DNA of 42,049 nucleotides from Gammaproteobacteria bacterium. Lineage in GTDB: Bacteria; Pseudomonadota; Gammaproteobacteria; Enterobacterales; Psychrobiaceae. The stretch covers positions 1 through 42,049 of the forward strand of contig JABSRU010000036.1 in the NCBI GenBank assembly GCA_013214965.1, written 5' to 3'. Shown here piece after piece: positions 13,120-40,371 of the stretch; the stretch's first letter is position 1, and each line of letters opens with the position of its first letter. Below the pieces are notes generated by a model. That model searched no databases and was not told where the DNA came from. It was given only the letters and a program-made list of their open reading frames with translations. A program made the translations under genes and the position numbers.

Positions 13120-13180
13120 ATTTAAGCATTGTTTAACTATAATGTACAGTAGAATTTAGCCTATATATTTGGAAATTTCG

Positions 13181-17608: not shown

Positions 17609-17633
17609 CTTGATCCTAAATTGTTAACCACAT

Positions 17634-17681
17634 AAAAAAACCGACAATAGTAACGAAATAAATATCATTATCATTATCGGT
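17634..17681 (-). terminator. Possible rho-independent terminator after the STN receptor gene
   Basis: On the minus strand ACCGATAAT (17681-17673) can pair with ATTGTCGGT (17648-17640) with one G-U pair, followed by seven T residues. The 24-base loop is long, which lowers confidence. It would end the receptor transcript just before the DUF3649 gene, and it overlaps the Fur box. Confidence 0.4.
17660..17678 (-). promoter_or_regulatory. Fur box upstream of the DUF3649-PepSY-DUF3325 operon
   Basis: Reading the minus strand, GATAATGATAATGATATTT matches the Fur consensus at 15 of 19 positions, with the first twelve exact. It lies 52-70 bases before the DUF3649 start, giving this three-gene set its own iron control independent of the sigma-factor-driven receptor gene. 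Confidence 0.7.
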
Positions 17682-17719
17682 TGGGTCATTCTAGCAGATT
17701 CTATATTTAGATATACGGC

Positions 17720-20413: not shown

Positions 20414-20468
20414 GGGTTACATTGCTCCATTTATTAAAGGTAATGAGAATTGTATGCATTTACTTTAA

Positions 20469-20474
20469 TAGACG
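20469..20474 (-). promoter_or_regulatory. Possible ECF-sigma -10 element before the STN receptor
   Basis: The 90-base gap between fecR and the receptor gene contains CGTCTA on the minus strand, about 55 bases from the receptor start. CGTC-type -10 elements are common among ECF sigma promoters, and the FecI-family sigma encoded next door is expected to act here. No convincing -35 was identified. Confidence 0.3.
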
Positions 20475-20503
20475 GAACAAGTGATGAAAAACCGTAAAAA
20501 TAT

Positions 20504-21424
20504 TTACATTAATCGTATTAAGTTATTTTTTATGTTTAATTTCAATCCCATACCTTGAGTGATTAATGTCAATGCTTGATAGGGTTTATCCAAATTGACC
20601 GAACCTGAAACGGGTTCATTGGCTAATGAAGGATCCATTAAATAAATTTTTTCTGATAAATAAGGTTGCAGTTGCGCTAATACATCTTTTAAGCGGCGAT
20701 CGTTAAATGTGAGCTTAGCTTGGCGCCAATCGATATTCGATTCATTGATTGTCACGGGTTGCCATTGGCTAGAAAACTCAGTTAGATAACCTTCTCTAAC
20801 GATTTTAGACGTCGCTTGATAATCAATTTTCACTTGGTGTTCCGTTACATTAAGTTGTACAAAAGGGCGAGTGTTGACCGTAAAAGCCGTGCCTAACGCA
20901 GTAAAGGTATGATCCTGATAGTTCACCACAAAAGGGCGTTGATAATCAGAGATCACGTTAAAATGAGCATCACCGGTCACCAGGGTGATGATGCGGTGTT
21001 GATCAGTGATATCAATCGACATTTTACTGTTGGCGTTGAGCAATACTGTGCTGCCGTCACTTAAGGTGAATGACTGCGGCTGAGCGACCGTGGTTTGATA
21101 ATATAATGTTGGATCTAAACTATTAATCGACAGCAAACTAATTGCAACACCACAAATTGCGGCGGCGGCGGCTAATGTTTTTTTTCCAAAGTTAACCGAA
21201 ATAACCGATGATGGCCGTGGTTTTTCCGCTGGCTGATTGGTCGATAGGCTCGATATTTCCCCCAAGGTTTGCCATGATTCTGCTAGCTCATCATAGATAC
21301 GTTGATGTCGCGATGACAGATTAAGCCAGCTAAAAAGATCATCATGATCATTAAAATCCACTTGAGATTGTTTGACTAACCATAGCGCGGCTTGTTGTTT
21401 TATTTGTAGTAAGTTATCGCTCAT
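20504..21424 (-). CDS. FecR-family anti-sigma / signal-relay protein
   Basis: Inner-membrane regulator of about 306 residues. The cytoplasmic N-terminus has the anti-sigma (DUF4880-like) features QAALWLVKQSQVDFNDHDDLFSWLNLS and RHQRIYDELAESWQ. One transmembrane helix follows (KTLAAAAAICGVAISLLSIN). The periplasmic FecR domain contains QSFTLSDGSTVLLNANSKM, GDAHFNVISDYQRPFVV, ALGTAFTV and VTEHQVKI. The C-terminal STN-like segment (LKDVLAQLQPYLSEKIYL) is the part expected to contact the receptor. The ATG at 21424 is favoured because AGGAG lies 10 bases upstream; the ATG at 21433 leaves only one base after that ribosome site. It overlaps the end of the sigma gene in either case, indicating coupled translation. 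Confidence 0.92.
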   Translation of the reverse strand: MSDNLLQIKQQAALWLVKQSQVDFNDHDDLFSWLNLSSRHQRIYDELAESWQTLGEISSLSTNQPAEKPRPSSVISVNFGKKTLAAAAAICGVAISLLSINSLDPTLYYQTTVAQPQSFTLSDGSTVLLNANSKMSIDITDQHRIITLVTGDAHFNVISDYQRPFVVNYQDHTFTALGTAFTVNTRPFVQLNVTEHQVKIDYQATSKIVREGYLTEFSSQWQPVTINESNIDWRQAKLTFNDRRLKDVLAQLQPYLSEKIYLMDPSLANEPVSGSVNLDKPYQALTLITQGMGLKLNIKNNLIRLM

Positions 21425-21425
21425 T

Positions 21426-21932
21426 TCATCCATGCTCCTGAGCTATTTCACTGCACATCACCAATGAAATCGCTAAATTTTTTTCAACCCAACTTAATGA
21501 TTTACCCTTGTGATCGGCAATTTGTTGATTGGTCCAGCCCTGAACGCGACTTAAGGTTAACAGATCTTGTTTTTCTTCAGGAAGTTCAGACAAAGCCTGT
21601 GCCATTAGTTCAATATAATTTGTTTCAATAGTCTGTTGTTCAGGGCTGGCATGATGACATTCAGCTAAGGCAATATGTTCCTCTTGACCTGTTTCAAGTG
21701 CACGGTCGGGCTTGCGGCTGTTATCAATAATCAGGTTACGGGCCATGCTAATGACATAGCTTTTGGGATTAGTCAGCTCTTTACTGTCAGATAGATGATG
21801 TAGTTTTAAATATAAATCTTGCAGTAAATCGACCGTTAAATCTGGGCATTTAACTTTATTTCTGATGTAGTTGAATAGATTTTTATATTCTTTTTGGAAT
21901 AAAATTAATGCATGAGATTTAGAGGCAGGCAT
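21426..21932 (-). CDS. FecI-family ECF RNA polymerase sigma factor
   Basis: Iron-starvation-type sigma factor of 168 residues, the normal size. Region 2 is seen in YKNLFNYIRNKVKCPDLTVD, LLQDLYLKLH and NPKSYVISMARNLIIDNSRK. Region 4 is seen in LSELPEEKQDLLTLSRVQGW and TNQQIADHKGKSLSWVEKNL. It should be held by the FecR-like protein and released when the receptor binds its ferric siderophore, then drive the receptor promoter. It is first in the leftward fecI-fecR-receptor set. A Fur box lies 34-52 bases upstream of the start. Confidence 0.92.
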   Translation of the reverse strand: MPASKSHALILFQKEYKNLFNYIRNKVKCPDLTVDLLQDLYLKLHHLSDSKELTNPKSYVISMARNLIIDNSRKPDRALETGQEEHIALAECHHASPEQQTIETNYIELMAQALSELPEEKQDLLTLSRVQGWTNQQIADHKGKSLSWVEKNLAISLVMCSEIAQEHG

Positions 21933-22546: not shown

Positions 22547-23878
22547 TTAAGCACCCATAATATTTTGTCCGCACACGCGAATTAAATTGGCGCTAACACC
22601 TTGTGAATAGGGGCTGGCGAGAAAGGCAATGGTTTCTGCAACATCTTGCGGTAAACCACCTTGTGAAAGTGAACATAATCGTCGCCCTAATTGACGAGGA
22701 ATAAAGGGAACAGCAGCCGTCATCTCTGTCTCTATAAAGCCTGGCGCCACAGCATTGATTGTAATTTGCTTTGGTGCCAATATCGGTGCCATCTGTTCAA
22801 TCATCCCAATGACACCCGCCTTAGATGTCGCATAATTCGTTTGGCCAGCATTACCACCAATCCCACTAATCGATGACACACCAATAATACGGCCGGCTTG
22901 AGCAATGATATTATTATTGAGTAAATACTGATTAATTCGTAAAATACTGGTCAAATTAACATCCATTAACAACTCCCATTGTGAGTCATTCATGCGCGAA
23001 AGCATCTTGTCGCGCGTTACGCCTGCGTTATGAACAATAATATCAAGCTGTTGATTATTATCTTTAACAAATTGAGCAATTTGTTGTCCGGCATCGCTAT
23101 CGGTAACACTTAATGGCAGCGAGCTGCCTTTAATGTTATCCATGGTTTGCTGTAACTGTTGCTGCGAGGCTGGTGTGTCTAAGCCAATAACCGTGGCACC
23201 GTCTCGGGCTAACACCTGAGCAATGGCAGCACCAATACCTCGTGCAGCACCGGTCACTAAAGCGACTTTACCCGCCAATGGTTGCTGCCATGTTAATTTG
23301 TTCTCAATCTGATGTTGCGACACCGAAATAACTTGGGCATTAACATAAGCGCAGCGGTCCGACATTAAAAAACGTAACGGTCCAGCGATTGAATTGCTTT
23401 CTGAGCCCGATGCTAATAATAAATTTGCGGTGATGCCTTTGCGTCCAACTTCTTTCGCCAAAGACTTTACAAAGCCTTGGAGGCTGCGTTGCACAATGGT
23501 GTGCTCGGTTGATACTGTCGCTTGAGCAGTTAAACCAATGACCGCAATTTTTCCATTAGGGTTTAATTGCTTAAGATTAAGATTAAAAAATTGATAAAGG
23601 CTTTTGAGTGCGGTGGTCGTGGTAATCGTCGTCGCATCGAAAATTAAGCCATTATACTTGGCACTTAAATTATCAGCTTGGTGAACATTAGTATCATTGA
23701 GCGCACTTAAAATCGCTGTCGTGGTGGCTGATTGAACGTTAGACACCAAAATGTCTGTTACTGTTTGCTCAGGGGTTTGATTAGCACGACGAAGTAATGG
23801 TGGCACTGGTAGCCCTAACCCTTTACACAATTTTTTACCAAAATAAGAGTTAGAAAATTCTAAATAGCCATCACTCAT
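22547..23878 (-). CDS. Long-form 3-oxoacyl-ACP reductase (FabG-like SDR with extra N-terminal domain)
   Basis: NAD(P)H-dependent ketoreductase of 443 residues. The C-terminal half (about 200-443) is a complete short-chain dehydrogenase: cofactor motif TGAARGIG at 209-216, NAG at 284-286, catalytic Ser336, Tyr349 and Lys353 in YATSK, and a PG-x-IETEM segment. The N-terminal half (about 40-195) is a second, degenerate Rossmann-like domain, typical of the high-molecular-weight FabG4 subfamily, and the first residues (YLEFSNSYFGKKLCKGLGLP) match that subfamily. Likely substrates are acyl-ACP or acyl-CoA 3-oxo intermediates. No thiolase or MaoC gene, its usual partners, lies beside it. The upstream DUF6942 gene is co-directional 56 bases away. 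Confidence 0.87.
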   Translation of the reverse strand: MSDGYLEFSNSYFGKKLCKGLGLPVPPLLRRANQTPEQTVTDILVSNVQSATTTAILSALNDTNVHQADNLSAKYNGLIFDATTITTTTALKSLYQFFNLNLKQLNPNGKIAVIGLTAQATVSTEHTIVQRSLQGFVKSLAKEVGRKGITANLLLASGSESNSIAGPLRFLMSDRCAYVNAQVISVSQHQIENKLTWQQPLAGKVALVTGAARGIGAAIAQVLARDGATVIGLDTPASQQQLQQTMDNIKGSSLPLSVTDSDAGQQIAQFVKDNNQQLDIIVHNAGVTRDKMLSRMNDSQWELLMDVNLTSILRINQYLLNNNIIAQAGRIIGVSSISGIGGNAGQTNYATSKAGVIGMIEQMAPILAPKQITINAVAPGFIETEMTAAVPFIPRQLGRRLCSLSQGGLPQDVAETIAFLASPYSQGVSANLIRVCGQNIMGA

Positions 23879-24723: not shown

Positions 24724-24729
24724 TATAAT
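24724..24729 (+). promoter_or_regulatory. Possible -10 element of the kinase operon
   Basis: A consensus TATAAT lies 48 bases before the chosen start of the first kinase, in the AT-rich gap between divergent genes. The best -35-like hexamer at normal spacing (TTCGAT, 15 bases away) is weak, so an activator may be needed. Position and the perfect -10 are the only support. Confidence 0.35.
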
Positions 24730-24776: not shown

Positions 24777-27700
24777 ATGAAAGCAAAAGTGCTATTCAGT
24801 GTCCTACTTATTGTCTTTACTGCATTGTCAGTAAAAGCTGTCACTATTAATGACGATGTATTGCCCAGTGATGTGGAGCGACATGGTCAAACTCCGGGTA
24901 TCTTACTGACTGATAATAAAGGTAGTATCAGTCATCAGCCAGACTTGTTAAGTCAAGAAGAGCGGTTATGGCTTAATCAGCATCATAAGCTACAAATAGG
25001 CAGTAGGCGTAATAATTATCCACTGAATTATATTGATAATGAGGGTCGGCAGGTTGGTCTTCATGTTGAATTGATCCAATTAATTAATGACAATCTAGAT
25101 GCCGATTTTTCAATCAAACATTATCCGATATGGAGCAAAGCCTTTTCAGCGATGAAAGAAGACCGAGTGGCAGGAATATTTTCATTATCACAGACTAAAA
25201 AAAGAGCTCTATATATTGATTATTCACCAGCTTATTATTATATCCATTTTGAAATTATTACCCAAAATTCTCGCGACGACATTCATCAGTTTAATGACTT
25301 AAACTTCCATCGTATTGCTGTCTTTAAAGGGAATGTTATTGATCAAATGGCTCAAGAAAAGCTATCCTCAGCCCGTTATCGTTACATTGATAACGAGGAG
25401 GATGGTTATCAAAAATTGATGCTAGGTGAGGTCGATGCGCTTATTATACCTGCCGTTGCCGCGAAAAAACTGAGAAAATATCATTTAAAGGTCGCCGGCA
25501 CGGTTTATAACCAAGCCGGGGAATATAGTATTGGCACGTTAAAAAAACACCCAATGCTCGGGCAAATTATAGCCAAAGGAATACATTCAATCCCCTTTGC
25601 TCAACTGAATCAGTTACATCAAAAATACAACCTACAGCACCCAGAACATTCGATTTTTACCGAATCAGAGTTACGTTACATTAGCGAGCATCCGATAGTA
25701 AAACTTGGGCTAGAAGAGTGGCCACCGGTTATCTTTTCAGGACAAAAAAAAATCTTAAAAGGTATTGCCGGCGATTATTTACAGGAGATAACTAAAATTT
25801 CTGGGCTGTCCTTTGAGGTGATAAAAGGCGATTGGGCGGATTTACTGAATAAGTTAAAGCACCAGGAAATCGATTTTATCCCCGACGCCTATTTTAGTAA
25901 AGAGCGTACAGAATATGCGTTATTTGGTGATTCTTATTTTGAGCTGGCTTCATCGATTACCGTTAATAAAAATAGCAACATTACTACCTTTGAGGATTTA
26001 GAGAACAAAAAAATCGCTTTGGTGGATGGCTATACTATGGTCGATATCATTGCACGGCAATATCCAAAAATTAAGATTGTGTTGACCGCTAATCTAGCAG
26101 AATCTTTACTCATACTCAGTAGAGGTGAGGTTGATGCGACATTTGGTGTTGATGTTGCATTACTACATGCGATCAATAATACTTTAATTCACAACGTAAA
26201 ATTTATAAATCAAACCAAATACTCGGCAGAGTCGCTCCATTTTATGTCACGAAAAGACCGCCCTTTATTACATTCCATTTTAAATAAATCTCTGTTTAGC
26301 ATTCCGCAGGCAAAAAAAAATGAAATAATCAAAAAATGGACAGTTGAAACCGAACTCAAAAAAGTCATTGATATTGCGTTTGGCATCGGACGGGAGCCCT
26401 ATAGCATTGATCACAAAAAACAATTACAAGGGATTGAATTTGACTTGCTACGACGTGCTTTTGAAAGTGTCGATGTGCAAATTCGTAGTACTCACAAATT
26501 ACAGTTGGAAGATTTAAATACGGTTTTATCAGAGTATCCGAGTTTAGATGCAGTAATCACGTTGGAGCGCTCCAACAATCAATATTATTATTCAGACTAC
26601 TTAATTGAGTTTGATAATGTCGCCATTACTCGCTCATCCGATAATCTTAAAATAACAAATGTCTCAGATCTTGAAGGAAAATCAATCACAGCATTTGAAG
26701 GCTCATCAAGACTGTTAGGCTCTGAATATCAGCGACTATTTAACCCGAAAGATCGGCCAAGTGATTATTCCGAGGTGGTATTTAAGCATCAGAACTTTAC
26801 CAATCTTGTCAATGGCGTCGTTGATGTGCTAGTGATTGATCGTAATATATTTAAGTGGCATGCAAAAAATGCTAACTATCATTCTTTTTCATCATTTACA
26901 TTCCATAAAATTTTTTCACAACCATCGCGCTTATATGTGGCCTTTCGAGATAAAAAATTACGAGATATTCTTAATGCCGAGTTAAGAAAATTTCGGCTTA
27001 ATGGCGAGTATCAATACATTATTGATGATTACACTCAAGGATTCATTGCGAAGAAAATTGAGTTCAACACTATTATTAGCTCAATTACTGCAGATCTGAT
27101 GGCTAATTATCAGTTGGTCGAATTAAAACGTGTGCTTAATGATGTTGCTGATTTACCTTATATTCATGATATTAAATTTTATGATATTAATGGTCAATTG
27201 ATCCATCGTACTTCTTCCTCTGACAGGCGTTTCTATAATCAAGAAAACAGTATCGATATACTATCAAATACCCCGATTAAAGAAGGAGTACTCAAAGTAT
27301 ATTTTAATGATTTGATGGTTGATAAACAACTGGTTAACTTGTTATTGATTCCTGAGCTCTCTTTTTTTAAAGGGTATTCAAATTACAATTATGTTCGGGC
27401 GCTATATCGGCGATTAAACATCCTCGACCAACAATTAGTTTTTACCTCAGCAGAGCAAGAGTATTTAGATAGTCACCCTATTTTGTCTTATTCAGAAATA
27501 GACTGGCGACCATTATCGGTGATAGAGCCGAGTGGTAACAGTGGGATGATTTTTGATTATATGAGCATTGTAACGGAAGGAACGGGGATAGAATTTGAGT
27601 TTGTCGAGATGACTTCGTGGGCTGAAATGTTAGCGGCATTTAAAGCAAAACGTATCGATTTTTTACCGAGTATTTCAACGTCGCTTAAGTATAACAATTT

Positions 27701-29510
27701 GGGTTCGAAAACCGATGAATACATGAGCTTTAACTTCGCGATTACCATGGATGAAAATGCTCAATACACGGACAAAATTGAAGATTTATATGGCCAAAAA
27801 GTCGCAGTGGTCAAAAATACTAGTGCGTTTCACTATGTGAATAAATTTAAGGATCGGTTAACAATTATTGTGGTGCCGACTTTAAAAACTGCATTAAATT
27901 TGTTGGGTGAGGGGCAAGTTGCTGCGGTTATCGATCATTTCGCTATTATGGTTTATCAGTTAACAAATGTTTATCAAGACTTGAAAATTGTAGGGCTACT
28001 TGATGCCTCATATTCTCATCGAATGTTAGTGCAACCTGACAACCCTATTTTACTGTCAATATTAAATAAGGTGATTGGCTCGATGAGTGTCGAGCAGCAT
28101 CAAATCATCAGAGATCGTTGGATCAAGCTTAAAATCTCGACCGCGACTGATTATCGGCTAATTTATCAATTGGTTGGTATTTTTCTTACTATTCTGATGA
28201 TTTTGATATTAATTCTCAGAAAACGAGCAATTATTAGTCGTGAAATTGCACACACGAACCAAAAATTAAACGTAACAGTGGCGGCATTAAAAGAACAAAA
28301 AAGTGTTTTTGAGACATTATTTTATGATACCGCTGATGGTTTACTTTTAACGGTCGATCAAATGTTTATTGATTGTAATAGTGCGGCATTAAAGATGCTG
28401 GGCTATGGTGCTAAAACTCAATTGTTAAATCAAAGTGTCGTTGAAATTTCGCCTAAATACCAACCTGATGGCGCATTATCAATGGATAAATGCCAACAAA
28501 TACATCAAGAGTGTCTCGTCAATGGCAGTGCGAGATTTGAATGGGTTCACCTTGATATAAATAACCAAGAGCTGTGGCTAGAAATAGTACTGACGCGTAT
28601 CGTCTTAAATAATCAGGATGTTACTCATACGGTGTGGCGTGATATTAATGAGAAGAAGCAGCTTGAACAACAAATCCTCCATCGGAATGAGGCTCTTGAG
28701 GCATCTAATAATGAATTAGAGAATGCGATTAGTGAGCTTAAGGAAACTCAACAGCATTTAGTCGCATCGGAAAAAATGGCCAGTTTAGGCGGCTTGGTGG
28801 CCGGAATTGCTCATGAAATTAACACCCCGGTTGGTATCGGTTTAACCGCGATTACTCATTTTTTAGAAACAACCAAAACGTTAGAAAATAAATACCAAGA
28901 AAAAAAAATGTCACAACGGGATTTTGATCAATATTTAGAGCAAACAGTCGAAGCCGCTAATATTATTAATCGTAATTTGGAGCGCACCGCAGATCTCGTC
29001 AGAAGTTTTAAATTAATTGCGGTAGATCAGTCCTCTGATGAACGAAGAACCTTTAATGTAAATACCTACATTAGTGAAATACTAACCAGTATTCATCATA
29101 TTACTAAAAAATCTAGGATGAAAATTATCGCAAGTTGTGATGCTGGTTTAGTGATCAACAGTTACCCTGGTGCTTTTTCGCAAATTATTTCTAACCTTAT
29201 TATTAACTCATCGATTCATGCTTATCCTAATAATGAGCTCGGTGAAATTTTGATTACGGTTCGCGAGGTAAAAGGGGCTATTCACTTGGTTTATCGTGAT
29301 GATGGGGTTGGTATTTCTGAAGATAATATTGGGAAAATATTTGACCCATTTTTTACCACTAATCGAGAACATGGTGGTAGTGGCTTAGGATTAAATATTA
29401 TTTACAATATTGTGACTAATCAATTAAAAGGAAAAATTGAGTGCACCAGCAAGCAAGGTCGCTACACCCAATTTTTAATTGTCTTTACCTCTAGTGAGGA
29501 TAATCAATGA
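24777..29510 (+). CDS. Giant sensor histidine kinase 1: four periplasmic SBP modules, PAS, kinase
   Basis: Membrane sensor kinase of 1,577 residues from the ATG at 24777 (AGG 7 bases upstream; starts the signal peptide KAKVLFSVLLIVFTALSVKA). Periplasmic part: three SBP_bac_3-like amino-acid-binding modules at about 62-290, 305-522 and 529-754. An unrecognised linker module spans 755-895 (FYDINGQLIHRTSS), and a fourth SBP module spans 899-1121. One helix (about 1127-1147) is followed by a cytoplasmic PAS domain at 1174-1292, a coiled coil and the kinase. The kinase has the H-box AHEINTP (His1346), N-box NLIINSSIHA, DDGVGI, FDPFFTTNRE and GGSGLGLNI, so it looks active. The stop overlaps the next start (ATGA). 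No receiver domain and no partner regulator nearby. Ligands unknown. Confidence 0.9.
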   Translation: MKAKVLFSVLLIVFTALSVKAVTINDDVLPSDVERHGQTPGILLTDNKGSISHQPDLLSQEERLWLNQHHKLQIGSRRNNYPLNYIDNEGRQVGLHVELIQLINDNLDADFSIKHYPIWSKAFSAMKEDRVAGIFSLSQTKKRALYIDYSPAYYYIHFEIITQNSRDDIHQFNDLNFHRIAVFKGNVIDQMAQEKLSSARYRYIDNEEDGYQKLMLGEVDALIIPAVAAKKLRKYHLKVAGTVYNQAGEYSIGTLKKHPMLGQIIAKGIHSIPFAQLNQLHQKYNLQHPEHSIFTESELRYISEHPIVKLGLEEWPPVIFSGQKKILKGIAGDYLQEITKISGLSFEVIKGDWADLLNKLKHQEIDFIPDAYFSKERTEYALFGDSYFELASSITVNKNSNITTFEDLENKKIALVDGYTMVDIIARQYPKIKIVLTANLAESLLILSRGEVDATFGVDVALLHAINNTLIHNVKFINQTKYSAESLHFMSRKDRPLLHSILNKSLFSIPQAKKNEIIKKWTVETELKKVIDIAFGIGREPYSIDHKKQLQGIEFDLLRRAFESVDVQIRSTHKLQLEDLNTVLSEYPSLDAVITLERSNNQYYYSDYLIEFDNVAITRSSDNLKITNVSDLEGKSITAFEGSSRLLGSEYQRLFNPKDRPSDYSEVVFKHQNFTNLVNGVVDVLVIDRNIFKWHAKNANYHSFSSFTFHKIFSQPSRLYVAFRDKKLRDILNAELRKFRLNGEYQYIIDDYTQGFIAKKIEFNTIISSITADLMANYQLVELKRVLNDVADLPYIHDIKFYDINGQLIHRTSSSDRRFYNQENSIDILSNTPIKEGVLKVYFNDLMVDKQLVNLLLIPELSFFKGYSNYNYVRALYRRLNILDQQLVFTSAEQEYLDSHPILSYSEIDWRPLSVIEPSGNSGMIFDYMSIVTEGTGIEFEFVEMTSWAEMLAAFKAKRIDFLPSISTSLKYNNLGSKTDEYMSFNFAITMDENAQYTDKIEDLYGQKVAVVKNTSAFHYVNKFKDRLTIIVVPTLKTALNLLGEGQVAAVIDHFAIMVYQLTNVYQDLKIVGLLDASYSHRMLVQPDNPILLSILNKVIGSMSVEQHQIIRDRWIKLKISTATDYRLIYQLVGIFLTILMILILILRKRAIISREIAHTNQKLNVTVAALKEQKSVFETLFYDTADGLLLTVDQMFIDCNSAALKMLGYGAKTQLLNQSVVEISPKYQPDGALSMDKCQQIHQECLVNGSARFEWVHLDINNQELWLEIVLTRIVLNNQDVTHTVWRDINEKKQLEQQILHRNEALEASNNELENAISELKETQQHLVASEKMASLGGLVAGIAHEINTPVGIGLTAITHFLETTKTLENKYQEKKMSQRDFDQYLEQTVEAANIINRNLERTADLVRSFKLIAVDQSSDERRTFNVNTYISEILTSIHHITKKSRMKIIASCDAGLVINSYPGAFSQIISNLIINSSIHAYPNNELGEILITVREVKGAIHLVYRDDGVGISEDNIGKIFDPFFTTNREHGGSGLGLNIIYNIVTNQLKGKIECTSKQGRYTQFLIVFTSSEDNQ

Positions 29511-32500
29511 TGCGATTGATGTTAATAATAGTTTGGGTATTACTTGCTTTTAATGCAAATGCTCAGGATATCGGCGTTGAGACTAAACAGTCTCCGATTA
29601 AAATTGCCTCATTAAAAGATTTCGCGCCATTAAGTTTTGTTGACCAACAGGGCAATCCTCAGGGTTTTTTACTCGATTATTGGCGCTTATGGGCAAAAAA
29701 AGTAAATCGTAGTATTGTCTTTGTCCCAATGACATTGCATGAAAGTAAATTAGCGTTACAACAAAAGACCGTGGATATGCACATTGGTTTATTCAAATTC
29801 ACAGCGCTACAGGATTATATTGATTTTGTTGCCCCAATTTATCCGACTAAATCCCATATTTTTATTAAAGCCAGTAGGCGGCCTTTAATGACTAGCATGG
29901 ATGATCTCAATGGCAAGAGGCTTGGAATTGTTACCGGATTTCACCTTAATCAATATATGAAACAACATTATCCATTGATTAAGCTTATAAATTATATCAG
30001 CTCTAAAGCGTTGATCGAAGCACTTGATAACGGTGAAATAGACGCCTTTGTAAATGGGTCGGTGCTGACTTGGTTTCAAATGGTGAAAGTAATGAATTTT
30101 CATCAATACACAAAAATTGCAGATTTTGAAGTCATTACCCGGCTACATTCGGTCGTGGTTAAAGGGAATTCATCATTATTAACACTGATTAAACAAGGGA
30201 TGTCTACAATCTCAGTTAATGAAATTACTAAAACTGAAAATAAATGGATCATTAACGAACAATTAAGAGCATCAACGTTAACCAAGAGCGAACAGCGTTG
30301 GCTTAGAGAACACCCAAATGTTGAGATAGCGACTACATTTGATTGGCCGCCTTTTATATTTCTGGACGCGAAGGGCAATGATGCTGGCTACAATGTTGAC
30401 TTGATCGCCACCATCAATAGTAATATTGGTAGTAACTTTAAGGTAAAGCGTTATCGCTACTGGCAAGACGGTTTAAATGATGTAAAAACCAGCAAAATAG
30501 GAGGGATTTTATCATTATCTTGGAGTAAAGAGCGCGCTAAAAATTTCAATTATTCGTCAACCTATTATTTTGACCTTCATAAAATTATCGTCAGAGTTGG
30601 AAACCGTAACATTAAAAACTTTTCCGACCTCAATGGTCAACGAATTGCGGTGATAAAAGACTATATGATCACTAATATGCTTAAGCAGGATATGCCTAGC
30701 GCTAAACTTGTTTATGTTAATAACCCTGAAGGTGCCTATAAAAAAATCGCAAATGGTCAAGCGGATGTTGCATTATTTTCTCACCCCAATCAGAAAGTAC
30801 TCACTCGCTATGGCTTAAAAATAACGGGAAATTTTTACACCAAAGCGGGTGAGTATGCGATTGGTAGCTCGAAAAGCAACCCGATATTGAGTTCTATTTT
30901 CGCTAAAGGTGTTAACTCAATTACCTCACAACAATCTGAGCTATTGTTAAAAGAATGGTTCAATAAGTCACAAACTCAATCATCGATATTCAATGCTGCA
31001 GAATTGCACTATATCAAAGAAAATCCACAAGTGATCGTCGGCGCAGAGCTGTGGCAGCCCATTGTATTTAGTGATGGTCGAGAGGTCTCGGGTATTGTTG
31101 GCGATTTATTACGTCAAGTGTCTAAAATATCAGGACTTAAATTTAAGCCCATCGTTAAGCCTTGGATTGAGCTAGTGACTGACTTTAAAGCGGGGGAGAT
31201 CGATTTACTACCGGCGTCCTATATGAAAAATCGAGAAGAGTATGGTTTGTTTGGTGATGGTTTCATTAATATATCCTCATCAATTTATCGATTAAAAGAC
31301 AATCAAACGATTAGCTCGTTTGAAGACTTACGGGGGCTAAAATTAGGGATAACGGCAGGCGATGCTGCTATTGATTTTGTTAAACAACAATTTCCAACGA
31401 TAAACATAGTCACATTCTCTAGCATTAACGATTCTATCGATTTACTGGTTAAGGGTAAAATTGATGCAATTTTTGAAATTAAAGCCGTGATGGACCATAT
31501 ACTAAGTAGTACGTTGACTGGGCAGATCCAAGAAATAAAACAGTATGAAATATTTGATCGAAAACTCTACTTCTGGTCAGCTAAAAAACAACCATTACTG
31601 CAATCAATTTTAAAAAAATCGATGAATTATATCCCGGAATCCTTAAGAAAAAACATTATTAAAAATTGGCTTGGCGGGGCAGAGCATAAAAAATCAATCA
31701 AGGTTGTTTTTGGGTTGGGTCGAGAGCCATTCACGCTCAATAAAAGTCATTTAAAAGGGATTGAATACGATCTGTTAAAGCGAATATTTGATGCCAAATC
31801 AATCGATATCTCACAAACCAAAAATTTACCACTGGGGATGTTAAATAGCGCACTAAAAGACTATCCAGAATTAGATGCCGCAATAACGGTCAAGAAAAAT
31901 AAAAAGGGTTATTTTTATTCTGATGAATTTGTGCGCTTTAATAATGTGGCGGTGTCGTTGAGGGAAAACAAATTTGAATTTAACAGTTTAAGTGATTTGA
32001 AAAATAAGCAAGTGCTAGCGTTTACAGGGGCGCTGAAATATCTCGGCCCGCAATATAATAAAGTATTTACAGCGAGTCAATATGACGGTTTGTATCAAGA
32101 AATCACGTATCAGCGACAACAACTAGATGCTCTTATTAACGGTAACGTTGATGTCATCATTATTGATAAAACGATTTTTAGTTGGTTTTTATCGCAATTG
32201 GGATATCGAACCATGGATTCATTCCAGCTAGATGATGTATTGGTTAATAGCATCAATAGCTACAGTGTCGCATTTCGTAATCGCCACCTACGGGATACTT
32301 TTAATGAAGGTTTAGCTGAGTTGAAAAAATCAGGTGCATATCAACATATTATTGACGGTTATGCTCAAGGGCTTGTGATACCTAAAATTGAGTTAACCTC
32401 GATAATATCCTCATTAGTCGCTCCCTTTATTTTCGGTGACGAACAAGATCGAGTTAACTTAATTATTAACAAATTCTCTAAATTATCCTATATCGACAAC

Positions 32501-34390
32501 ATCGAAATATTTAATAATCAAGGAGAATTGTTACATCAAACGTCGGTTGAAGCATTTAATTTTTATCAACAGTTTGATAGTTTCTCTTGGCTCAATAATG
32601 TGACCGAAAAAGTGGGTTTTATTCGAGTGTTTTTTAATGATAGTGAAGTGAAAAAACAATTAATTAGTGCGAATTTAATGCCTGATATTGATTATTTTAA
32701 ACAGCACCGAGATTATCAAAGTATTAAAGAAATTTATCAGCGTTATGGTTATTTAGAACAAAAAATCAATTTTAATTTACAAGAGCAAATGTATTTAAAT
32801 CAGCAACCCACATTAACCTTTTCTGAAGTGAACTGGTTTCCGTTAGCGATGATAAAGGATAATAACTTTAGTGGCTTGACCGCTGACTACATGAATATTG
32901 TTGCTAAAAAAACCGGGATAAAATTTAAATTGAAGCCATTAGAAAATTGGATGGAGGTTGTCAAAAATTTCAAGAACAAACAGCTCGATTTTTTACCGGG
33001 AGTCGCAAACCTTGAGCAATATCACGCGATCGGTTTATTATCGGATCAATATGCCTACTTTAAATTTGCGATTGTGATGGAGGCTAAATCAGCCTTTGTC
33101 AGTGACAGTAATGACCTTAAAGGTAAAACGATTGCGCTCTCCAAAGGGAGTAGTGCTTATTACTACATTAAAGAGAGGTATCCCAGTGCCACTGTTATTG
33201 ATGTAACCACGATTGAACAGGCATTGAGTATGGTTCGCAGTGGCAGTGCCGATGCTTTTGTTGAGCACCTAGCCGTGGTGGTTAATCAATTGGAACATGC
33301 TTTTAGCGATCTCCGGATGGTTGGCTTGCTTGATTCTGGCTATTCTCATCGAATGATGGTTCAGCCAGATCAAAAAGTGCTATTGGGCATTATTAATAAA
33401 GTTATCGCTGCTATTCCATTGGCTAAACACCAAGAAATTCATGATCGTTGGATCAAAACTGAAATTAAAACCGCGGTTGATTATCGGATGTTCTATCAAT
33501 TGATTTCTGGTTTTTTATTGATACTACTGTTGATTTCAGTCGTCGTGAGAAAAATAGCCCATGCTAAAAAAGAAGTGGAGCGGGCACATTTAGAGTTAGA
33601 ACGCTCTTTTAGCAACCTACAACAGACCCAGCAGCATCTCGTCGAATCAGAAAAAATGGCCAGTCTTGGCGGTTTAGTCGCTGGGATTGCCCATGAAATT
33701 AATACGCCAGTGGGTATTGGCCTGACCGCAATTACCTATTTTTTAGGGATTACTGAAACATTAGAGCAAAAATACCGTGACAAAAAGATGTCACAATCTG
33801 AGTTTGAAGAATATTTAAAATCGAGTATCGAATCGGCTCAAATAATCAACCGTAATCTTGAGAGAACGGCTCAGTTAGTGCGAAGTTTCAAACAAATATC
33901 GGTTGACCAAAGTTCTGACGAGCGGCGGTTATTTCACGTCAAAAAATATATTGAAGAAATACAATTAAGTATTTTTCATCTCACTAAAAAAACCAATATT
34001 ACAATTAAAGTCGATTGTGACGAAAACTTGATGATTGACAGCTACCCGGGTGCTTTGTCACAAATATTGTCTAATTTTATGATTAACTCTACTATTCATG
34101 CTTATCCTAACAATGAGTACGGCACTATTTCAATTAAAGTAGAAGAGCAAGATGGCGTAATTAAACTAACCTATACTGATGATGGCGCTGGAATTCCGAT
34201 ACAAAATATCAAAAAAATATTTAATCCATTTTTCACCACTAATCGTGAAAATGGTGGTAGTGGATTAGGGTTAAATATTATTTATAATATCGTGACTAAT
34301 CGCTTAAAAGGGAAAATAGAGTGTCGCAGCGACGTTGGAAAATATACCGAGTTTATGATTGTTTTTACTCCATTAAATAGAGGGAGTTAG
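29507..34390 (+). CDS. Giant sensor histidine kinase 2: five periplasmic SBP modules, kinase
   Basis: Paralogue of the preceding gene, 1,627 residues. A signal peptide (1-20) is followed by an extra SBP_bac_3-like module at 30-250 that kinase 1 lacks, then modules at 260-487, 498-723 and 731-955. The unknown linker module lies at 956-1098 (IFNNQGELLHQTS), and a fifth SBP module at 1099-1320. A single helix at about 1329-1349 and a coiled coil lead directly to the kinase with no PAS domain. Catalytic elements: His1396 in AHEINTP, Asn1527 in the N-box, DDGAGI (1558-1563), FNPFFTTNRE and GGSGLGLN (1583-1590). SBP modules at 260-487 and 498-723 keep the Arg of the amino-acid-binding loop (KERAKNF; KNREEYG); the later two do not. 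It starts inside the previous stop codon, so it is translationally coupled. Confidence 0.9.
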   Translation: MMRLMLIIVWVLLAFNANAQDIGVETKQSPIKIASLKDFAPLSFVDQQGNPQGFLLDYWRLWAKKVNRSIVFVPMTLHESKLALQQKTVDMHIGLFKFTALQDYIDFVAPIYPTKSHIFIKASRRPLMTSMDDLNGKRLGIVTGFHLNQYMKQHYPLIKLINYISSKALIEALDNGEIDAFVNGSVLTWFQMVKVMNFHQYTKIADFEVITRLHSVVVKGNSSLLTLIKQGMSTISVNEITKTENKWIINEQLRASTLTKSEQRWLREHPNVEIATTFDWPPFIFLDAKGNDAGYNVDLIATINSNIGSNFKVKRYRYWQDGLNDVKTSKIGGILSLSWSKERAKNFNYSSTYYFDLHKIIVRVGNRNIKNFSDLNGQRIAVIKDYMITNMLKQDMPSAKLVYVNNPEGAYKKIANGQADVALFSHPNQKVLTRYGLKITGNFYTKAGEYAIGSSKSNPILSSIFAKGVNSITSQQSELLLKEWFNKSQTQSSIFNAAELHYIKENPQVIVGAELWQPIVFSDGREVSGIVGDLLRQVSKISGLKFKPIVKPWIELVTDFKAGEIDLLPASYMKNREEYGLFGDGFINISSSIYRLKDNQTISSFEDLRGLKLGITAGDAAIDFVKQQFPTINIVTFSSINDSIDLLVKGKIDAIFEIKAVMDHILSSTLTGQIQEIKQYEIFDRKLYFWSAKKQPLLQSILKKSMNYIPESLRKNIIKNWLGGAEHKKSIKVVFGLGREPFTLNKSHLKGIEYDLLKRIFDAKSIDISQTKNLPLGMLNSALKDYPELDAAITVKKNKKGYFYSDEFVRFNNVAVSLRENKFEFNSLSDLKNKQVLAFTGALKYLGPQYNKVFTASQYDGLYQEITYQRQQLDALINGNVDVIIIDKTIFSWFLSQLGYRTMDSFQLDDVLVNSINSYSVAFRNRHLRDTFNEGLAELKKSGAYQHIIDGYAQGLVIPKIELTSIISSLVAPFIFGDEQDRVNLIINKFSKLSYIDNIEIFNNQGELLHQTSVEAFNFYQQFDSFSWLNNVTEKVGFIRVFFNDSEVKKQLISANLMPDIDYFKQHRDYQSIKEIYQRYGYLEQKINFNLQEQMYLNQQPTLTFSEVNWFPLAMIKDNNFSGLTADYMNIVAKKTGIKFKLKPLENWMEVVKNFKNKQLDFLPGVANLEQYHAIGLLSDQYAYFKFAIVMEAKSAFVSDSNDLKGKTIALSKGSSAYYYIKERYPSATVIDVTTIEQALSMVRSGSADAFVEHLAVVVNQLEHAFSDLRMVGLLDSGYSHRMMVQPDQKVLLGIINKVIAAIPLAKHQEIHDRWIKTEIKTAVDYRMFYQLISGFLLILLLISVVVRKIAHAKKEVERAHLELERSFSNLQQTQQHLVESEKMASLGGLVAGIAHEINTPVGIGLTAITYFLGITETLEQKYRDKKMSQSEFEEYLKSSIESAQIINRNLERTAQLVRSFKQISVDQSSDERRLFHVKKYIEEIQLSIFHLTKKTNITIKVDCDENLMIDSYPGALSQILSNFMINSTIHAYPNNEYGTISIKVEEQDGVIKLTYTDDGAGIPIQNIKKIFNPFFTTNRENGGSGLGLNIIYNIVTNRLKGKIECRSDVGKYTEFMIVFTPLNRGS

Positions 34391-34394
34391 TTTG

Positions 34395-36179
34395 ATGTGG
34401 CCAAGAATGTTGTTGATTGTACTATGGGCTTTTATTGCGCCTGTCCAGAGTAAGCATGTTGAAGATCTGCCGTTAAAAATTGCAATGATAACCAAGGCGG
34501 TCCCATACAGTTACCTTGATCAGAACAATAAACCACAAGGGTTACTCATTGATTATTGGCGACTTTGGGCGAAGAAAGTGCAACGAGAAGTTGAGTTTGT
34601 ACCTTATCGTTGGGCAGAGGCAATACTTGCGCTCAAAAATAATCAAGTGGATATTCACATGGGGTTGCTTGAACGCGGTGTTTTTAGAGAATACATTGAT
34701 ATTCTCGATGCGATCTACACCACTAAATCACATATTTATATTCCCACTAATAATCCCGATAATATCGAAAATATTAATGATCTTAAAGGTAAAAGACTCG
34801 GCGTGTACGATCGATCTTTTTTCGACGCTTTTATCACTGAAAAACATCCTGACATTGAAATTAAGCGTTATCGATTATTAACTGGATTTGAACATGCGGT
34901 TGACAATAAAGAGATAGATGCATTCTTGAGTGAGTCAATGACCACTTGGTTCCATTCGATTTCAGCCTTGAATTTTAATCAGTACGTGAAGTTAAAAGAC
35001 TTTAAAGTGGTGAAAGACTTAAAAGCGGCGATTAGAAAAAATAGACCTTTACTCAAGAACTTAGTGTTACAAGGGATGGCCAGCATTACTGCCGACGAGA
35101 TGCTGAAAATTGAACGAAAATGGATTTTTAGAGAACAAGACCGCACCGTTAGTAGCACCACAGAACGTTTAACGAGTAAAGAGCGACAATGGTTACTCAC
35201 GCAACCGATTATTGAAATTGGCAGTGAGGATAACAGGTTCCCTTTTTCTCATTATAATAAAAATGGAGAACTGGTAGGGTTTAATATCGATTTAATTCAG
35301 TTCATGAATAAGAATTTAAATACAAATTTTGCTTTGAAACGCTATCCAGTTTGGTCCAACGCCTTACTAGAAGTGAAGGCTGGAACGCTGAGCGGAATCT
35401 TTTCTTTATCGTGGAGTGAGGAACGCGCTCAAAAAATTAATTTTTCACCTGTATATTCTCATTCTCCCCACAGTTTAATTGTTAGAGAAAAAGATCAACG
35501 TGTCAAAGAACTCCATGATCTAGCGGGATCTCGAATTGCAGTGCTAGAGCATCATTTGGCCACCGAAATCCTTAAAAGTAAGCTCCCTAACGCAATTTTT
35601 GTGTTTGCCCATTCACCGGAAGAAGCTTACCAGATGATTCAAAACAACGAAGCCGATGCATCTTTATTTGCCTTTCCCAGTGCTGAAATACTGCATCAAT
35701 ACGATTTAAAAGTGGCAGACTTGGTTTATACCAAAGCTGGAGAATTTTCAATAGGGATGCCAAAATCAGTACCTATGCTTAAAATCATCATGACAAAAGC
35801 AATCAATTCGTTAACGACCAAGCAAAAAAACACCTTGTATACCAAATGGTTTCAATTGAAAAAACACTCAATTTTGACCAAGTCAGAATTGCATTACATT
35901 CTACACAACCCGACCGTTGTAGTCGGTATTGAGCATTGGCCTCCTATTATTTTTGATGCGAACATCGGTCAAACATCAGGAATTATCGGTGATTTTTTGA
36001 CTGAAATTGAGCAACTAACAGGGCTTGAATTTATCGGAATTAAAGACAATTGGCAATCGCTGTGGCAGCAATTTAATAAACATAAAATAGATTTACTACC
36101 AGCGACTTTTTTTTCTGAATCTAGAGAGCAGAAAGGCTTATACGGAGATAGCTACTTGCAGTTAGGTCTGTCTTGTTAA
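34395..36179 (+). pseudogene. Giant sensor histidine kinase 3, N-terminal fragment (frameshifted gene)
   Basis: The third paralogue starts at ATG 34395, with AGGGAG 8 bases upstream and 4 bases after the kinase 2 stop. The fragment carries a signal peptide (LLIVLWAFIAPVQS), the extra N-terminal SBP module (about 27-247), the second module (about 259-487, with Arg in EERAQKINFS), and the first lobe of a third (from about 500). It then runs into TAA at 36177-36179 after YGDSYLQLG. In kinases 1 and 2 the matching position continues SSI..., and here that continuation is found in another frame from 36162 onward. One missing base at about 36160 explains the break. The fragment alone would be a secreted protein lacking membrane helix and kinase. 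Confidence 0.85.
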
Positions 36180-39100
36180 TCAATAGTAAAGATAATAATC
36201 TTAAATCATTGGCGGATTTGAAGGGGAAAAAACTGGCCCTTATTGAGGGGCACTATGTGATCGAAAAAATAAAGACTCGCTTTCCTGAGATTGATATCGT
36301 GATGACGTCAGGAGTGTCTGACTCAGTTAGCCGTTTAATTAATCATGAAGTTGATGCTGTGTTTGGAGTGAATTCGGTATTATCTAGCGCTAAAACAACC
36401 AGCTTATCTAAAGGGTTAGAATTAATTACGCAAAATGATATAAAACCACTACCTTTACATTTCTTTACTGAGCCGTCGAAACCGATACTGCACTCAATTT
36501 TAAATAAAGCATTAACTTATATCAGCCAAACGAAAAAAGATAACATCATTCAACATTGGCTGGGAGAGGATGAACTGAAAAAAACAGTGAGCATCGCTTT
36601 TGGTATTGGCAGCGCACCCTATAGTCTTACTCAAGAACCTTGGCGAGGAATTGAATATGACTTAATTAAGAAAATTTTTGGAGTGAGTCAGATCAAAATA
36701 GAAAGCGCCGAAGACATGTCCAAAGAATTATTGCCGCAACAACTACATACACAGTCTCAATTTGATGTTATCTCCTCAGTAGCCATCCAACAGCCTCAAT
36801 ATTATTATTCCGATAAATTTGTCACCATGAGTAACGTAGTTGTTACCAAAAAAGCAGATCACTTTAAGATAAATAGCTTGGTAGATCTGATTGATAAATC
36901 GGTTTATGCATTTTCTGGTGCGCTAAATGAACTCGGGCCTGAATATTTTAATGTATTTAATCCCGAGTCATATAAAGGAAGTTACCAAGAATATCGGGTG
37001 CAAAAAAATCAAGTATCAGATTTCTTATTAGGCGATGTTGATGCAATGATCATTGATCGAAAAATATTTTATTGGTATGCGAGAATTAATGGTTACTCAT
37101 CATTTGAAAATTTTGAATTTCATGAACTTTTTCCGAAAGAAAAAGAGTTTTATGTTGGGTTTAAACAGCTGAAATTAAGAGACATATTTAATAAAAATTT
37201 AGCGGCGATCAAAAAAACAGGTGAATATCAGTACATACTTGACGAGTACAACAATGGTACCGTCGTACCTAAAATAAAATTGACCTCGTTAATTTCAGCG
37301 ATACTCGCCCCTTTTATTTTTAAAAATAATCATCAAGCCATAATATCATTAACCAAGAAGTTAAATAGCTTACCCTACATCAACAAAATTGAAGTTTATA
37401 ACAAGCATGACAAACTAATCCATGCCACGTCAACTCAAGAATATCGCTATTATAAACATGCTGATAGCTATAGCTTTGTCTCTAAAATTTGGACCAAAGT
37501 AGGTAGTATTAAAGTTTATTTTGAGCAGAACTTAGTGGTAGAGAATTTAGGGGGCGATGACTTAATTCCTGACATTAGTTTTTATGATGATCAAAAAGAA
37601 AAATCACATATCACAGAAGTGTATAAAAACTTCAGCTATTTTAGTAATAAAGTTAACTTTAGCACCGAAGAAAAACGTTATATTGCAACTCACCCGGTAC
37701 TAAAATTCTCTGAAGTTAGTTGGCAACCGCTCTCTATTGTTGCAGAAAGCGGAAACATCGGATTGATTTTCGACTACCTTCAAATATTTTCTCAAAAAAC
37801 CGGTATTCAATTTGAACTCGTGCCTGCAGATAATTGGCCTCAAGCCGTTGAAAAATTTAAAGCCAACGAAATAGATTTTTTACCGGGGATCACCAAATTA
37901 AAAAAATATACAGATATTGGTAAAATATCGGATGAATATGCCTATTTTAATTTTTCAATTATCATGAATAGTGATGCATCTTTTGCTGATAGTATTAGTG
38001 ATATCAAAGGAAAGAAGATTGCACTAGTTAATGATACTTCCGCTTATCACTATATAAAAACCTATTACCCAGATGCCTACACGGTAGAAGCACACAACGT
38101 GACAGAGGTACTAAAAATGATTCAACAGGGTGAAGCCGATGTCGCGATAGGCCACCTCGCGGCATCGGTCTACCAACTAGAAAATAAGTTTAGTGATTTA
38201 AAAATAGTTGGCATTCTCGATTCTGGCTATTCTCATCGCGTGTTGGTGCAGCCCAACAATGAACTATTATTGTCGATTTTTAATAAAGTGATTAATGATA
38301 TACCGATAGAACAACACCGAGATATTCGCGAACGCTGGATGAATCAAAAAATATTAACCGCGGTTGATTATCGGTTGGTTTATCAGATAGTGACAGGTTT
38401 TCTATTGCTACTATTTTTGATTTTACTGGTGGTTAAAAAACTGACTAATGCTAAAAAATATGTCGATAAAACCAATTTAGAGTTCCAGCGTACCATTGCC
38501 GACCTAAAAACGACCCAACAGCATCTAGTCGAATCAGAAAAAATGGCCAGCTTAGGAGGTTTAGTTGCTGGTGTTGCCCATGAAATCAACACTCCGGTCG
38601 GCATCGGCCTGACTGCAATTACCCATTTTTTATCGATTAATGACGAATTAAAACTCAAGCATCAACAACAAAAAATTTCCCAAAAATATTTTGAGAAATA
38701 CCTCAAAGACTCAACCGAGTCGGCCAATATCATTAATCGTAACTTAGAGCGTACGGCTCAATTGGTCAGTAGTTTTAAACGAATATCCGTTGATCAAAGT
38801 TCTGATGAATGTCGAACCTTTCCGGTCAAAAAGTATATTGATGAAATATTATTGAGTGTTAATCATGTGATAAAACGTTCAAAAATTGATATCCACATTA
38901 GTTGCAGCGACAGCCTAAAAATAAACAGTCACCCAGGGGCGATGGCGCAAATTTTGACTAATTTAATTATTAATTCCTCGATTCATGGGTTTCCAAATAA
39001 TGCTAAGGGCAATATTTTTATTGATATTACTACCGATCAGCAACACGTAACACTGACTTATCATGACGATGGTTGTGGTATATCGGGCAAGAACTTAAAT

Positions 39101-39277
39101 AAAATATTTGACCCTTTCTTCACCACCAACCGTGAACATGGCGGCAGTGGACTCGGCTTAAATATTGTGTACAACATTGTTCACACTCGTTTAGGCGGAA
39201 CGATCATGTGCACCAGCGAACTTAATGAAGGGGTTAAATTTGTGATTAAATTTGACGTTGATATTGTGAGCCAATAA
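36173..39277 (+). pseudogene. Giant sensor histidine kinase 3, C-terminal fragment (frameshifted gene)
   Basis: Continuation of the third paralogue in a shifted frame (opening LINSKDNNLKSLADLKGKKL). It holds the rest of SBP module 3 (to about 130), module 4 (about 138-360), the unknown linker (361-500, VYNKHDKLIHATS) and SBP module 5 (about 505-727). A transmembrane helix (about 735-757), a coiled coil and a kinase core follow, with AHEINTP (His near 803), NLIINSSIHG, DDGCGI, FDPFFTTNREHGGSGLGLNI. All kinase motifs are intact, so loss is recent or the break is a sequencing error. Rejoined length is about 1,628 residues, equal to kinase 2. The only nearby start in this frame is a TTG overlapping the upstream stop, with no ribosome site; a product from it would lack a signal peptide. 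Confidence 0.85.
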
Positions 39278-39477: not shown

Positions 39478-40371
39478 GTGACAGATTATAACCAGCAACT
39501 ACAAAAAATTAAATCGCAAAACGGTTTTATCGCAGCGCTAGACCAAAGTGGTGGCAGCACCCCAACAGCACTAAAAAGTTACGGCGTTGACAGCAGTGCC
39601 TGGACTAATGATGAAGGCATGTATAGCGTGGTACATCAAATGCGCGCACGGATCATGACCAGTCCAAGCTTTACTGGCGAGCGCGTGATTGGCGCAATCC
39701 TCTTCGAAAACACCATGGACCGTGAAGTGGAAGGTAAATCGACCGCCGAGTATCTGTGGAGCGTCAAGCAAGTTGTGCCATTCTTAAAAGTAGACAAAGG
39801 CCTAAGCGACGAAGCCAACGGCGTGCAATTATTAAAGCCAATGCCACAACTTGACGAATTACTGGCTAAAGCCAAAAGCAAAGGCATTTTCGGCACCAAA
39901 ATGCGCTCGGTAATCAAACTAGCCAACCAAGCAGGCATTGAAGCCGTGGTTAAGCAGCAGTTTGAAGTGGCCAAGCAAATCATTGCCGCTGGTCTCATGC
40001 CAATTATCGAACCAGAAGTGGACATTAACAGCAGCGAAAAAGCGCAAGCAGAAGTGATGCTACAAACAGCAATCCTAGCTGAGTTAGACCAGCTAACAAG
40101 CGACCAACAAGTGATGCTAAAAGTAACCCTACCAGAAGTGGTTAACTCATACGCCGCCTGTATCGCTCACCCGAACACGGCAAAAGTAGTGGCATTATCT
40201 GGCGGTTACGATCGCGATCACGCCAACGAACGCCTAACAGCCAACAAAGGCATCATCGCTAGCTTCTCCCGCGCCTTATCACAGGGCCTATCAGCCCAAC
40301 AAAGCAGCGAAGAATTCGACGCCACCATGAACACCTCAATCGAAGCAATTTATCAGGCATCTAGCACGTAA
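39478..40371 (+). CDS. fda: Fructose-bisphosphate aldolase, class I (bacterial FdaB/Fda type)
   Basis: Cytoplasmic glycolytic/gluconeogenic enzyme splitting fructose 1,6-bisphosphate into dihydroxyacetone phosphate and glyceraldehyde 3-phosphate by a Schiff-base mechanism without metal. The 297-residue length is normal. Motifs: FIAALDQSGGSTPTALKSYG (Asp22), FENTMDRE, VPFLKVDKG, GTKMRSVI, MPIIEPEVDI (Glu178, expected proton acceptor) and MLKVTLPE (Lys215, expected Schiff-base lysine), then ALSGGYDRD. The start is GTG with GAGAG 8 bases upstream. Codon use is visibly more C-rich at third positions than in the kinase genes, consistent with strong expression. It is followed by a strong terminator, so it is a single-gene unit. 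Confidence 0.95.
   Translation: MTDYNQQLQKIKSQNGFIAALDQSGGSTPTALKSYGVDSSAWTNDEGMYSVVHQMRARIMTSPSFTGERVIGAILFENTMDREVEGKSTAEYLWSVKQVVPFLKVDKGLSDEANGVQLLKPMPQLDELLAKAKSKGIFGTKMRSVIKLANQAGIEAVVKQQFEVAKQIIAAGLMPIIEPEVDINSSEKAQAEVMLQTAILAELDQLTSDQQVMLKVTLPEVVNSYAACIAHPNTAKVVALSGGYDRDHANERLTANKGIIASFSRALSQGLSAQQSSEEFDATMNTSIEAIYQASST

Follow-up and report, generated by a model that had tools for sequence, protein, structure and literature searches.

The locus at positions 24777–39277 of the window (the whole stretch of DNA analysed, 42,049 nucleotides) raises the question of what three adjacent, very large sensor kinases are composed of, whether their architecture is new and which output they might serve. 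A first-pass annotation had described three co-directional paralogues of 1,580–1,630 residues, and most of that observation holds, i.e., it is partly confirmed. The ORF listing and Pfam searches place three such paralogues, here P1, P2 and P3, on the forward strand; P1 and P2 overlap at an ATGA (29507–29510), as described, and the reported four-base gap (34391–34394) separates P2 from the ATG of P3 at 34395, shrinking to one base with a TTG start at 34392. P1 and P2 are intact, being open throughout over 4.7–4.9 kb each with all kinase boxes kept, but the third open gene proved to be two frames, of 595 and 1034 aa. Promoter-like and terminator-like sites occur in the window at chance level (56 versus 57.3 and 12 versus 10.9, respectively), an Rfam search of the window matched no family, and the contig ends at position 42049, 2.8 kb past the array.

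P1 (24777–29510, +) encodes 1577 aa, or 1593 aa with an upstream TTG at 24729, and the ORFs, Pfam, a module profile and hydropathy indicate a multi-VFT sensor histidine kinase with four VFT (flytrap) modules, a non-VFT insert, a transmembrane helix, a PAS domain and a kinase. Its first VFT (25005–25631, +; alignment and module profile) corresponds to the VFT2 position of P2; the module profile also delimits the VFTs at the VFT3 (25713–26342, +) and VFT4 (26388–27035, +) positions and the membrane-proximal VFT (27495–28124, +), the insert (27036–27494, +) lying between the last two. The helix predicted from hydropathy (28158–28214, +; residues 1128–1146) precedes the Pfam matches to PAS_9 (28335–28652, +) and HATPase_c (29175–29486, +). 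P1 is without the first VFT position, its alignment to P2 beginning at about residue 240 of P2, and a PAS match (Pfam PAS_9) occurs in this paralogue alone. P2 (29507–34390, +; 1627 aa; the same lines of evidence) contains five VFTs, all on the + strand: VFT1 (29615–30250), VFT2 (30335–30961), VFT3 (31043–31672), VFT4 (31724–32365) and the membrane-proximal VFT5 (32825–33454), each found with the module profile, with a PDB sequence match for VFT2 and VFT5 and a structure model for VFT4 and VFT5. The P2 insert (32366–32824, +) separates VFT4 from VFT5, and the chain continues with a hydropathy-predicted transmembrane helix (33491–33547, +; residues 1329–1347) and HATPase_c (34052–34366, +; Pfam). 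A signal-like hydrophobic segment at the N-terminus is above the hydropathy threshold in P1 and P2 and below it in P3.

The first piece of P3 (34392–36179, +; 595 aa from the TTG at 34392, with an ATG at 34395) holds VFT1, VFT2 and the first part of VFT3, according to the ORFs, Pfam and the module profile; the second piece (36173–39277, +; a 1034-codon frame, delimited by the same evidence and hydropathy) holds the rest of VFT3, VFT4, the insert (37253–37711, +), VFT5, a transmembrane helix (38378–38434, +; residues 736–754 of this piece, hydropathy) and the kinase with its HATPase_c domain (38939–39259, +; Pfam). A weak hydropathy peak (1.63) in the P3 insert was excluded from the helix count. 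With the second frame open from 36152 onwards and the stop codon of the first at 36177–36179, the change of frame falls within those 28 bases (36152–36179, +; frame limits), and since the pieces align consecutively along P2 (residues 3–593, then 595–1620), they represent one gene with one break. The source assembly is a 144-contig draft, and the break could be either a real mutation or an assembly error; if it is real, P3 would give no full receptor. In G003, a genome of the same genus with a two-gene array, the first array gene is also split, with Ns nearby, which is probably an assembly matter. Other interrupted or truncated multi-VFT kinase copies in the genus (G007:C22, G005:C1:995 kb and G008) suggest repeated loss of such genes within it; genes of this kind in other species of the genus were located at L033 7216–10750 (+), L034 9352–12276 (+) and L036 2180–2956 (−).

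The module profile, which started from P2 and was refined with 25 proteins or pieces from the window and its relatives, counts four, five and five VFTs in P1, P2 and P3, with the third P3 module divided across the break; Pfam lists four SBP_bac_3 stretches in P1, five in P2 and three plus two in the pieces of P3. These counts agree with the four or five binding modules per chain initially described, and a single membrane helix, seen as a hydropathy peak after the last VFT, and a kinase, seen as HATPase_c (E 2e-18 to 9e-20), are likewise present in all three chains. The first-pass annotation had missed the P3 break and the non-VFT insert before the last VFT. HisKA is below the Pfam cut-off in P1 and P2 and is unlisted for P3, and the H-box EKMASLG.LVAG..HEINTPVG and the N, G1 and G2 boxes occur in P1, P2 and P3. 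Pfam found no match to Response_reg or Hpt in P1–P3, both of which are present in a relative (G017); the three kinases are of the short, non-hybrid type.

The proposed kinship with EvgS and BvgS is supported by the searches. BvgS (PDB code 4q0c) was the top PDB sequence match for P2 VFT2 and VFT5, and a fold search with a model of the VFT4-insert-VFT5 part of P2 (residues 735–1345; AlphaFold with 18 sequences, pLDDT 86.5, pTM 0.57) returned the tandem-VFT chains of the transporter GlnPQ at the top, then BvgS and EvgS as the top sensor kinases. The window chains share with EvgS of E. coli (PDB code 9ilw) a VFT sensor kinase ectodomain, matching by fold and sequence; EvgS is a hybrid kinase, and its solved ectodomain has two VFTs (two matched stretches) without the insert, whereas the window chains have four or five VFTs and the insert. 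They share with BvgS of Bordetella (PDB codes 4q0c and 3mpk) tandem periplasmic SBP_bac_3 VFTs, one membrane helix and a histidine kinase. BvgS is composed, according to the available parts of PMC3726324 and PMC11841396, of two VFTs, a PAS domain, a kinase, a receiver and an Hpt domain; the window chains have four or five VFTs instead, with an additional domain ahead of the final one, a short kinase of the non-hybrid type and a PAS domain in P1 only. The regulator of BvgS is BvgA, whereas the window contig, up to its end 2.8 kb after the array, shows no response regulator.

The family is large: PMC5829827, in the portion available, reports more than 11,000 VFT kinases, puts the share of the BvgS family without PAS between membrane and kinase at about 30% and names an LLAAA coiled-coil motif in the linker before the DHp as a family feature. 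Four or five modules per chain are not new. Dupré et al. 2015 (PMC4352136, in its accessible text) describe BvgS homologues with one to five VFTs, those with three to five covering the same range of module numbers as the window chains, and ten fetched relative stretches have 2 to 6 VFTs per chain; many VFTs per chain are therefore not unique. Tandem arrays of such genes and a PDC-like domain inside the chain go unmentioned in that text of Dupré et al. The six-VFT chain (L094 in G610:C7, 3122–10012, +) is a 2296-codon hybrid kinase with two receivers that adjoins a REC-HD-GYP gene, and its module number exceeds the maximum of five in the part of PMC4352136 at hand. A search of genome contigs with P2 gave two weak matches (32% identity), one at the kinase end and one in a VFT; in the plasmid collection, 57 records matched, one of them over at least 80% of the query, and the named relatives of the window kinases come from this collection alone. 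The array represents a known sensor family in a rare, extended version, and every chain carries an additional sensor-like domain.

That extra domain comprises approximately 150 non-VFT residues between the last two VFTs and was found in all 19 chains or pieces aligned. It is conserved between kinases of different type, the short non-hybrid kinases of the genus and the hybrid kinases of relatives; insert-less multi-VFT kinases also exist (five of the ten fetched stretches, L094–L098). Pfam searches with the inserts revealed no family at the curated cut-off, the best match being CHASE5 with 18.0 of the required 27 bits. Below the cut-off, CHASE5 and CHASE8, the only families matched by more than one insert, each match three of 30 inserts at E ≤ 1, and LapD_MoxY_N matches one of 30. 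AlphaFold modelling of the insert alone (30 sequences; pLDDT 85.6, pTM 0.75) predicted two helices, four strands and a helix, as did the larger model of P2 residues 735–1345, this core lying at about 32375–32665 in P2. The nearest solved domains in a Foldseek search belong to WalK (PDB code 4ywz; E 9e-4 to 2e-2), the LapD orthologue CdgS9 (4u64; E 1.5e-3) and CitA (1p0z; E 0.2), which are extracytoplasmic PAS-like domains; the matches are weak, with one at E ≤ 0.001 and TM below 0.55 (for 4u64, TM 0.43/0.54 and rmsd 7.8). Given the similar predicted topology and these best matches, we read the insert as a putative LapD/PDC-like domain; this assignment, made from modelling, is not proven. LapD/CHASE/PDC extracytoplasmic domains adjoin membrane helices, unlike the insert, which sits inside the VFT chain. 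The titles and abstract openings of the open-licence literature searched speak neither of VFT kinases with a LapD/PDC-like domain inside the chain nor of tandem arrays of such kinases.

A profile of eight inserts matched 28 of 394 genomes of the order: seven of the genus, six of family f10, two of f20, one of f13 and 12 of f21. Side-by-side copies occur in two of these 28 genomes, three in the present genome and two in G003, and of the six further genus members with the insert, five have unlinked copies only; the tandem arrangement, noted from the start as unusual, is thus rare. In a scan of the class with a 30-insert profile, 13 of 369 genomes matched, and outside the own genome only the match in G610:C3 spans the whole insert, that in G751 covering profile positions 109–170 only. 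Matches at profile positions of about 140–170 were rejected as inserts, being the VFT N-terminal motif; this was seen in five fetched genomes (G610:C7, G698, G470, G571 and G468), and the remainder were judged by the matched range alone. A scan of the phylum gave five matches in 398 genomes, including the window's own, all in the same order. The G610:C3 kinase has three VFTs, plus one at E 0.0016; its locus (L093, 2478–16001, −) contains three consecutive receiver-bearing frames (2267, 1113 and at least 1135 codons), with VFTs and the insert in the first only. A named insert carrier is Vibrio sp. THAF190c, whose three-VFT kinase (L109:6110–11086) shares the order VFT-VFT-insert-VFT with the window chains; unlike the non-hybrid window kinases, it is a hybrid with a receiver, and it adjoins a 347-aa receiver protein.

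The two-gene array of G003 adjoins the same SDR and DUF3192 genes as the window array (the SDR-family gene lies at 22547–23878, −, with 63% identity over 443 aa), which indicates an old locus. The G003 contig ends about 190 bases past the second array gene, and the DUF6942 and aldolase genes of that genome are on separate contigs. The class I aldolase-like gene after the window array (39478–40371, +) shares 92% identity with its G003 counterpart, a conservation far above that of the kinases. Recent duplication was considered and rejected: P1 has no 20-mers in common with P2 or P3, and P2 and P3 share five. In the tree, in which six of the 12 inner branches are weakly supported, P2 groups with G004:C16 (100/99), and P1 and P3 are on long branches; the end branches of the paralogues (0.29–0.72 changes per site) indicate deep divergence. 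The P2 counterpart in G004 is full-length and 59% identical, and the kinase ends of P1 and P2 are 67% identical over 275 residues.

As to the ligands, the 'amino-acid-type' description is apt as a family label. Amino-acid SBPs, we assume, bind their ligand via a conserved pocket Arg and Asp. All three paralogues keep the Arg at VFT2 and VFT3 and the Asp at VFT4, and wherever both sites of a window module aligned, at least one of the two residues is missing (the split VFT3 of P3 being unreadable across the break); VFT4 of G004:C16 has both. Since the two residues never occur together in these window modules, the ligands, judged from the pocket positions, may be other than amino acids. A single receptor may integrate several nutrients, as first suggested.

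The output partner is probably encoded elsewhere: none of the 66 receiver matches lies on the window contig (C80), and no response regulator was found beside the array in the 23 window frames searched with Pfam (28 frames of at least 100 aa are listed). Any partner is, therefore, a guess from relatives. Receiver and kinase pairs near three relatives, which we take to be OmpR/EnvZ-like, were considered as partners and judged unrelated, lying about 5 kb away on the opposite strand. On contig C56 of the own genome, a kinase of the same type is followed by a REC-DUF3369-HD_5 protein (Pfam), one of three DUF3369 proteins of this genome (on G000:C56, C134 and C1). DUF3369 occurs at 28 places in 12 of 20 genomes, five of them within 1.2 kb of a same-type short kinase and 23 not near one; at most nine kinase candidates were scored per genome, so five is a lower bound. 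A further own-genome frame (L074 in G000:C2, about 1989–4166, +; 1064 codons) has SBP_bac_3 and HD_5 matches, i.e., a VFT protein is fused to a c-di-GMP phosphodiesterase domain.

Outside the genus, 13 of the 21 genomes with insert-bearing hybrids have an HD_5 match no more than 4 kb from the kinase, on its contig and strand, as read off by eye, including all 12 of f21 and the single one of f13; in f10 (six) and f20 (two), no HD-GYP was close to an insert-bearing kinase among the matches listed (0/8), and no receiver was found next to the giant kinase in five of these eight (L037–L039, L100 and L102). Pfam was applied to seven of the 11 receiver-bearing neighbour frames (347–374 aa, one per stretch, in seven of the ten stretches), leaving four larger ones (552–1135 codons) in L093, L095 and L096, and all seven are REC-HD-GYP proteins. 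Two stand beside insert-bearing kinases (L099 and L101, the two of the 13 HD_5 neighbours run through Pfam) and five beside insert-less multi-VFT kinases; the link is consequently with multi-VFT hybrids at large and not with the insert. These HD-GYP-linked relatives are hybrid kinases with receivers, unlike the short kinases of the window. Nine HD-GYP proteins of V. cholerae include four, among them the DUF3369-containing VCA0210, that behave as active c-di-GMP phosphodiesterases, and deletions of HD-GYP genes had no effect on motility or biofilm under the conditions tested (PMC4212101, available parts). From this activity and the HD-GYP neighbours in relatives, we infer a c-di-GMP output for the window's own kinases. 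A comparable system, described in the accessible part of PMC11841396, is ArrS/ArrR of Aeromonas veronii, in which a BvgS-like kinase controls a c-di-GMP phosphodiesterase response regulator; ArrS differs in having two VFTs and being a hybrid, and ArrR in having an EAL output, as opposed to the HD-GYP output proposed here. The window itself contains a c-di-GMP enzyme, a CHASE-GGDEF-EAL protein (13169–15529, +), and a row of genes for a PepSY_TM protein, a TonB receptor (STN below cut-off), a FecR protein and an ECF sigma factor (15810–21932, −), i.e., a surface-signalling cluster of iron-uptake type.

The best explanation, to which we give an even chance, is that the array encodes BvgS-type receptors with several inputs, whose signal would go to a regulator encoded at another site, plausibly a c-di-GMP phosphodiesterase. 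The products are sensor histidine kinases whose periplasmic antennae are extended to four or five VFTs, the last of them preceded by the putative LapD/PDC-like domain and followed by the single membrane helix and the short kinase part of non-hybrid type. The distal VFTs, through their ligands or closure states, would change the strain that the membrane-proximal VFT is under; the insert might be a helical dimer spine or an extra sensor coupling the distal stack to the last VFT, and the balance of kinase and phosphatase activities would then shift via the membrane helix, as in BvgS. The best candidate target would be a REC-DUF3369-HD-GYP protein, a c-di-GMP phosphodiesterase, because genes for such proteins lie next to some same-type kinases, both in the own genome and in related ones, and because HD-GYP genes are neighbours of hybrid multi-VFT relatives whether or not these carry the insert.

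The same genes may also be ordinary enlarged BvgS homologues with a transcriptional or other output, to which the c-di-GMP link of the relatives was not carried over because the kinase domain was exchanged. The difference between the short genus kinases and the HD-GYP-linked hybrids fits this, as do the 23 DUF3369 places away from same-type kinases, the lack of HD_5 near a genus giant among the matches listed, and the flanks of the genus giants, which are without a receiver save the OmpR-like gene about 5 kb off in three; the same-type short kinases adjoining DUF3369 genes at five or more places argue against it. This explanation is possible, at a probability well short of even.

The frame break of P3 brings in another explanation, a decaying array: the copies would come from receptor-gene birth and death, the third being already a pseudogene and the tandem arrangement functionless. 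The interrupted and truncated copies in the three other genomes of the genus point the same way, as does the variation of copy number and module number between species, but P1 and P2 are fully open with all kinase boxes, a full-length counterpart of P2 exists in G004, G003 still has a two-gene array at this locus, and P3 has a single break with its kinase boxes kept, which also fits an assembly error; such decay is, therefore, unlikely. The hetero-dimers proposed at the outset, in which the three receptors would mix their ligand specificities, would suit co-directional, nearly overlapping genes with similar kinase ends in P1 and P2; given the deep divergence of the paralogues, the unlinked copies that alone occur in most other insert-bearing genomes of the genus, and the broken P3, we regard them as very improbable.

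The locus and its relatives offer a testable set, in which a conserved domain sits where it could link the distal flytraps with the membrane-proximal module, and in which multi-VFT sensing is connected through gene neighbourhood, in several families, with c-di-GMP phosphodiesterases of the HD-GYP type; sensor kinases of more than two VFTs have so far, in the literature parts available, been counted and not studied. A broader and rather doubtful suggestion is that VFT chains with an embedded LapD/PDC-like domain form a distinct, unnamed class of mixed ectodomains that report several metabolites to c-di-GMP turnover via HD-GYP phosphodiesterases; in this genus, the class would have been transferred to a short orphan kinase and multiplied as a tandem array. 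If so, one locus would provide several many-input receptors with c-di-GMP turnover as their common output.
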